A stretch of 64,000 nt of DNA from positions 124,001-188,000 of the forward strand of contig JAQGDQ010000305.1 in NCBI GenBank assembly GCA_030141605.1, given 5' to 3'. This DNA is from Tubiluchus corallicola (Eukaryota > Priapulida > Priapulimorpha > Priapulimorphida > Tubiluchidae). The notes below the pieces were generated by a model that was not told the origin of the DNA, did no database searches, and was given only the letters and a program-made list of their open reading frames with translations. Both the position numbers and the translations under genes were made by a program. Shown here one piece after another: positions 32,568 to 33,901 of this stretch (its first letter is position 1; every line of letters starts with the position of its first letter).

Positions 32568-33901
32568 ATGCACAAATCAGGAGTGATTGCAGTGGCTCTG
32601 CTTGTTATATTCCTTGTGTGTAAGTACAACTACTTTTAATAGTAATACAGGTTCATGCTAATAGGACATTTCTGATAGCTGTGTAATATGCACTGATATC
32701 TAAAGGCAATAAACTACCTGAATTGTCAATATCAATTTGTGGTTTTATACGTGATTTTAGTTATTGAGTTAATAGTAAGACTTGTAGTGCTTTTGAGATA
32801 AATAGACTTGACGCGCAACCGACCTCCGTAGAAATATCTGTTTAATATTCTACATAGCAGAAATTTGCATGGAATTTTTTGTTTCAGTGAGTACACAAGA
32901 GACTGAAGCACGTCGTGTTGTAAGTATCTTTCAGTTGTGAGCTTAGCTGGTTTCATGCAAAGTCTTGTTTTATTATTTATAAATTATTATTGTCTCAATT
33001 CCATAGATTTTATTACTTGTGCATATTTTTGGAGACTTGTAGGTATAGGCCTGCAATATCATAAGTGCACTACGGGTATTGTAAATGCACGTGTTAGTAG
33101 GAATTATAGGAAGTATTAAATGACTGAATTTACCGATTAAATTAATGAATGAATTAATCAACGCACTAAGGAATGAGTGAGGCGAAATTGAATGAGTGAA
33201 TACATGCGTTAATGTACGTTCAGATATATTTGCAAGTGCTCCCACGATGTTGCACTTTTGATCCGTAACAAAAAACTTGGTTGTATGAAAGTACATGTCC
33301 TCTAATAACAAAAACGCTTGCAAATGTAAAAAACAATAGGGTTAAATGGGATGAAGGCTACAAAATGGTAAATACTGAGACTGAGAAGTGAAACTAAGCA
33401 TAGCTGCGCATACAAACGCAGTAGTAATATACCGTAGTATATATAATAATAATTTATTATTTGACAAAAGTTATATACAATCCCTCTATTTGTACGGAAT
33501 GCGTGAATAATGCTAGCGTTAATTAATTAACATTTATAATGCGTTAATTAACTGATTTGCGCAAAAGGAGCAATGATATACTGATTTCAATTTTTTGGCA
33601 TTTTGTAGCATTTTTTGGCATTCTGTGGCATTTTTTGGCCTTATCTCAGTAGTTTCTGAGACGCGTAATGATGTGATAAAATAGATCTTTATTTCCAAAA
33701 GAGAAACAGCATACAACGGAAAATAAATTTCATTTTCATTTTCATTTTTAGGCTGGTCGCAGAACAGTTGTTGCTGGTTCCCGGGGAGCGGCATCCAGAA
33801 CAGTTGTGGGTGGTCGCCGGGGCGTGGCGGCTAGGGGACGTAGAATCTACCGAGACTTGAGCGAACTTGAAGATGAAGACGACTCGTATGAAGATGAATA
33901 G
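32568..33901 (+). CDS. Small secreted Arg-rich/acidic peptide precursor (77 aa, 3 exons)
   Basis: Exons 32568-32619, 32888-32919 and 33752-33901 have good GT-AG sites and matching phases (1, then 0), giving 77 codons plus stop. Residues 1-25 form a signal peptide (core VIAVALLVIFLVL, cleavage likely after TEA25). Residues 26-62 contain 12 arginines and no acidic residue, with a 12-residue tandem repeat (TVVAGSRGAASR then TVVGGRRGVAAR) and Gly-Arg-Arg at 30-32, 49-51 and 57-59. Residues 63-77 carry 10 Asp/Glu of 15. Cationic core plus anionic tail is the layout of several invertebrate antimicrobial-peptide precursors; GRR is also a classic cleavage and amidation site of neuropeptide precursors. 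There is no cysteine. I recognise no family. An AATAAA follows at 34359. The coding assignment is firm, the function open. Confidence 0.8.

Follow-up and report, generated by a model that had tools for sequence, protein, structure and literature searches.

The window, i.e. the whole 64-kb stretch of DNA analysed here, carries a candidate small spliced gene at 32568 to 33901 of the forward strand, among frames of several other kinds. On the same strand, an uninterrupted frame of 289 codons at 5816-6682 belongs to the Rad51 family (Pfam Rad51, E 1.7e-37) and is, we assume, probably RAD51C, and many frames from about 7223 to 27000 look to us like RPAP1 exons; two of these RPAP1-like frames (10545-10865 and 22887-23177) gave no Pfam match. 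On the reverse strand, a leucine-rich-repeat exon lies at 2433-2711 (Pfam LRR_1, E 2e-5), which we take to be perhaps LRRC57, while two similar frames at 39149-39607 and 57189-57482, with weak ZP-N matches below the Pfam cut-off (E 0.0057 and 0.009), suggest a possible pair of zona-pellucida-type genes. A cysteine-containing exon resembling the EB module (30936-31163, E 5.7e-5, just under the Pfam cut-off) precedes the peptide gene by 1.4 kb on the opposite strand, and 31744-31804 is taken up by about 10.7 interstitial TTAGGG units in an imperfect array. The Rad51 and leucine-rich-repeat matches, the weak ZP-N and EB ones and the apparently spliced genes indicate an animal host. The features of the candidate gene are as follows:

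32472 to 32479, forward strand: TATA-like box TTTAAAAG, 96 bases 5' of the ATG, a consensus match only
32568 to 32619, forward strand: coding part of exon 1 (52 nt; MHKSGVIAVALLVIFLV) with the core of the signal peptide, ending in phase 1 at a GTAAGT donor
32888 to 32919, forward strand: exon 2 (32 nt), which completes the signal peptide (probably cleaved behind ETEA) and adds RRV, ending in phase 0 at a GTAAGT donor
33752 to 33901, forward strand: exon 3, cationic core (AGRR to RGRR), acidic tail and stop TAG
33761 to 33832, forward strand: tandem repeat of two in-frame 36-base copies (33761-33796 and 33797-33832), 27/36 identical
33833 to 33844, forward strand: R-G-R-R, residues 56-59 (coordinates by arithmetic), furin-type motif with a possible amidation glycine and presumed processing
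33854 to 33898, forward strand: acidic tail DLSELEDEDDSYEDE, residues 63-77 (coordinates by arithmetic), 10 of 15 acidic
34110 to 34115, forward strand: ATTAAA poly(A) signal, with a GT-rich stretch behind it that starts at about 34140

An earlier note on this DNA had proposed three exons joining in phase to 77 codons, and re-translation of the 234 joined bases indeed gave 77 residues, MHKSGVIAVALLVIFLVLSTQETEARRVAGRRTVVAGSRGAASRTVVGGRRGVAARGRRIYRDLSELEDEDDSYEDE, followed by the stop. The donor is GTAAGT in both introns and the acceptors end in TTTGTTTCAG and TTCATTTTTAG, each after a T-rich tract. Exon 1 leaves phase 1 and exon 2 returns phase 0, so the frame would be lost if exon 2 were skipped. 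Since an in-frame TAG stands immediately upstream of exon 3 and no in-frame ATG lies inside it, exon 3 can be coding only through splicing. The G+C content is 42-57% in the coding exons and 31.7% in both introns. At the level of sequence, the gene model, understood as open exons that join in phase, is confirmed as real, and from it we infer splicing in vivo.

Leader residues 1-25 are hydrophobic and end in ETEA, and are judged a signal peptide from this hydrophobicity only. Signal-peptidase cleavage follows the -3/-1 rule, which ETEA presumably fits, placing the likely cut after Ala25. The core that follows is composed of Arg, Gly, Val and Ala, is of low hydrophobicity and has no aromatic residue; residues 26-62 include no acidic residue, and the net charge over the acid-free residues 26-59 (34 residues) is +11. 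In the tail, where 10 of the residues 63-77 are acidic, the segment DDSYEDE would, we assume, suit tyrosine sulfation. The layout of signal peptide, acid-free cationic core and acidic tail described by the earlier note was thus recovered, as was the lack of cysteine, since a composition count found none in the whole precursor of 77 residues. By our own measure of helical moment, which is not that of HeliQuest, residues 26-59 reach 0.12, a value attained by 77.6% of 500 shuffles of the same residues, so the core is not amphipathic. The fold predicted for exon 3 residues 29-77 alone, from the single sequence, had a mean pLDDT of 61.3, which is low confidence, and was uninformative.

Two scans of both strands, each with a null of 100 dinucleotide-preserving shuffles of the window, were used to judge how readily such anatomy arises by chance; their cut-offs were chosen post hoc, with the sequence already seen. 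The first looked for signal exons, taken as exons 36-90 bases long that open with an ATG, encode 12 consecutive residues whose mean hydropathy is at least 2.4 and end in GTAAGT or GTGAGT. Exon 1 was its only match in the whole window, against an average of 0.32 matches and at most 3 in a shuffled window, and by arithmetic about 0.003 such matches are expected on one strand in the 1.2 kb before exon 3. The second required an acid-free stretch of 30 residues, 9 or more of them basic, and within 5 residues a stretch of 15 of which 9 or more are acidic; it found exon 3 only (2 overlapping matches) and nothing in any of the 100 shuffles. A looser charge scan gave 14 matches (11 on the forward and 3 on the reverse strand). 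Of the 11 matches listed, exon 3 accounts for 6, the strongest having charges of +7 and -10, and the other 5 reach 4 on their weaker side. The 36-base repeat that had been noted at 33761 and 33797 is present with 27/36 identical positions and in its best register with 28/36; when 33752-33860 was shuffled 1000 times, the mean was 17.1 and no shuffle exceeded 22. It is unlikely that the gene anatomy arose by chance (0/100 shuffles for the core and tail, 0/1000 for the repeat).

Relatives were sought in Pfam, NCBIfam, PDB sequences and IMG/VR, libraries in which few short animal peptides are represented. NCBIfam and PDB sequences yielded no match to the precursor, and among IMG/VR viral contigs 79 stretches fitted the peptide pattern and 0 were confirmed as relatives. 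These results agree with the earlier note, which had recognised no known family. The only Pfam match, of residues 6-41 to Pox_I5, is weak, falling with 14.7 bits (E 0.032) short of the cut-off of 25, and was taken as chance. In the text of open-licence papers, none of the short strings taken from the precursor occurred. No second copy of the gene was found in the 64-kb window, the best non-self tblastn hit among the matches listed having E 1.3 and the loose charge scan agreeing, nor did two kB-site patterns match on either strand in the 2 kb before the ATG.

The lack of a homologue in these four libraries would be expected if the exons were unrelated pieces, or parts of a decayed or unexpressed gene. 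The repeat points the same way: its 12-residue copies (RTVVAGSRGAAS and RTVVGGRRGVAA) differ by 3 synonymous and 4 amino-acid-changing codons; synonymous changes are not in excess, so purifying selection is not evident from the repeat itself. We nevertheless regard a chance or decayed frame as very unlikely, given that no shuffle reproduced the bipartite stretch, that the sole signal exon of the window lies 1.2 kb upstream and in phase, and that two GTAAGT donors, a contrast in G+C between exons and introns, and TATA-like and poly(A) signals accompany it.

GRR triplets start at residues 30, 49 and 57, and had been put forward in the earlier note as marks of cleavage and amidation, as in peptide-hormone precursors. 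The triplets are there, each of their glycines would suit amidation, and a likely signal peptide precedes them; if all three were cleaved, as in a neuropeptide or hormone precursor, the products would be RRVA-amide, TVVAGSRGAASRTVVG-amide and GVAAR-amide, and the tail would serve as an acidic spacer. The hormone part of the claim has fared poorly, however. The furin motif is R-X-K/R-R, and it occurs once in the precursor, as the R-G-R-R of residues 56-59, three residues ahead of the acidic tail; the first two triplets stand in AGRR and GGRR, which are not furin-type. Amidated neuropeptide precursors carry similar peptide copies bounded by cleavage sites, although single-copy precursors exist, whereas the three products predicted here are unlike one another and the acidic part is terminal only and does not separate peptides. 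The inner triplets are also out of step with the 12-residue repeat, whose copies they do not bound: copy 1 has GSR at the place of the inner GRR of copy 2, and ahead of copy 2 stands ASR in place of the GRR that precedes copy 1. As these sites are not common to both copies, they form no conserved border of repeated peptides, and they have the look of incidental products of a repeat rich in Arg and Gly, not of borders maintained for cleavage. We consider such a hormone precursor rather improbable. A secreted polyampholyte of a structural matrix, for instance of shell, tunic or mucus, in which basic repeat and acidic tail act uncleaved, is likewise unlikely; it would suit a repeated low-complexity sequence with opposite charges and no confident fold, but the protein is very short, has one repeat pair only and bears a convertase-type site beside the charge border.

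With moderate confidence, we instead propose that this small spliced gene, from an animal, encodes the inactive precursor of an Arg-rich antimicrobial peptide that is linear and free of cysteine. A gene model and anatomy beyond chance, a +11 core lacking acidic residues and cysteine, and a lone furin-type site with a glycine all support this proposal. We read the precursor as releasing one amidated cationic peptide from its acidic tail rather than as a multi-peptide hormone precursor. After removal of the signal peptide behind Ala25, the acidic tail would neutralise the cationic core within the secretory pathway until a furin-like convertase makes a single cut after R-G-R-R59, near the charge border; a carboxypeptidase would then trim both arginines and Gly57 would be converted to a C-terminal amide. 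The mature product would be an Arg-rich peptide of 31 residues (residues 26-56), RRVAGRRTVVAGSRGAASRTVVGGRRGVAAR-amide, which would bind bacterial surfaces or intracellular targets electrostatically and would not act as an amphipathic helix. The non-amphipathic core, with its low hydrophobicity and lack of aromatic residues, counts against an antimicrobial function. More tentatively, and with less than even confidence, the gene could represent a lineage-restricted antimicrobial family unrelated to those described, whose amidated, non-helical peptide of Arg, Gly, Val and Ala, free of cysteine and proline, would have been extended through duplication of an RTVV unit in frame. If real, it would add a peptide of unique sequence to the linear antimicrobial peptides without cysteine known from invertebrates, which are readily overlooked for want of a conserved domain, and would indicate that gene anatomy and charge layout can reveal such genes in raw DNA. 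Moreover, its Arg-only, non-amphipathic core would offer a useful test of whether charge alone is enough for activity and, should the host be marine, whether it is so at the salinity of sea water.

The antimicrobial precursor with an acidic pro-part at which the earlier note had hinted appears to be supported by analogy with the myticalins of mussels (Mytilus) and with candidates from the sea squirt Ciona, since both share the order of signal, cationic and acidic parts. In the available part of its description, the myticalin precursor has a signal peptide, a cationic Arg-rich part, a dibasic site with predicted amidation and an acidic C-terminal part, and the mature part comprises 23-42 cysteine-free, Arg-rich residues, the dibasic site often being preceded by Gly (PMC5577615). 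The present gene resembles myticalins and the modiocalins of Modiolus in having these parts in the same order (PMC5577615), the modiocalins being described as myticalin kin whose acidic extension is shorter than 35-75 residues (PMC5577615, PMC12294457). By eye, however, the signal consensus given there for myticalins, MKGXXLLLLTIXXALCMIXECEG, is absent from MHKSGVIAVALLVIFLVLSTQETEA of the window gene (PMC5577615). Myticalin signal and mature parts are reported to share one exon, with a phase-1 intron within the acidic part (PMC5577615), whereas, between the coding exons of the window gene, a phase-1 intron interrupts the signal peptide and a phase-0 intron the early core. In addition, 18 residues follow RGRR59, compared with 35-75 after the dibasic site in the myticalins described (PMC5577615), and the core has no Pro, Trp or Tyr, unlike the myticalins of these accounts (PMC5577615, PMC12294457). 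By our measure the helical moment of myticalin C10 stands above its shuffles (2% reach it), and that of the window-gene core does not (77.6%). On the basis of signal peptide, exon structure and tail length, we reject membership among the myticalins. The genes of that family are clustered according to the accessible text (PMC12294457), and the lack of a paralogue in the window counts against the antimicrobial reading.

Among ascidian peptides, styelins and botryllin are alike in being secreted pre-propeptides with a cationic mature part, as far as the available account goes (PMC9966394); botryllin, with 158 residues and a largely helical mature peptide of 37, is set apart by its description (PMC9966394). 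Tatritin was dropped as a relative because it is described as Cys-rich in the portion available (PMC8984021). The linear cationic candidates of Ciona (Ci-MAM, Ci-PAP, Ci-META and the KH.S921.1 group) are presented in the text at hand as short cysteine-free precursors in the order signal, cationic, acidic, with an acidic C-terminal part in 17 of the 22 candidates (PMC7387483). Measured by the criteria given there, the window gene has 77 residues (range 50-100), no cysteine, a cationic followed by an acidic part, and a signal peptide by hydrophobicity only (PMC7387483). The second Ciona signal consensus in that source, MNKSALLXLLXXGLXVLXEXXXA, shows a gapped likeness to MHKSGVIAVALLVIFLVLSTQETEA by eye (PMC7387483); signal peptides in general are alike in composition. 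The Ciona set was reportedly selected for amphipathic helices (PMC7387483), and the window-gene core, with a moment of 0.12 by our own measure and not HeliQuest, lacks one; conversely, the Ciona candidates were reported to lack a basic processing motif at the charge border (PMC7387483), where the window gene has one. In the same test, the share of shuffles reaching the peptide's own moment was 0.4% for Ci-MAM-A, 0.6% for Ci-PAP-A, 12.8% for KH.C1.365 and 65.2% for KH.C7.94. Like the window-gene core, the last of these has a net charge of +11 and is non-amphipathic by our measure; it is nevertheless reported as active on 3 of 4 microbes, with an MIC of 6.25 uM for each of E. coli, S. aureus and S. 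cerevisiae (PMC7387483), which favours the antimicrobial reading. It was negative against P. aeruginosa and is placed there among the less salt-resistant peptides, and KH.C1.365, partly similar to the window-gene core in composition, had no or weak activity (PMC7387483); the limits of the former in spectrum and salt and the weakness of the latter count against the antimicrobial reading. Membership in the myticalin or Ciona families thus fails or is unproven, and by analogy of layout the gene is filed, as to its kind, as a putative linear cationic antimicrobial precursor.
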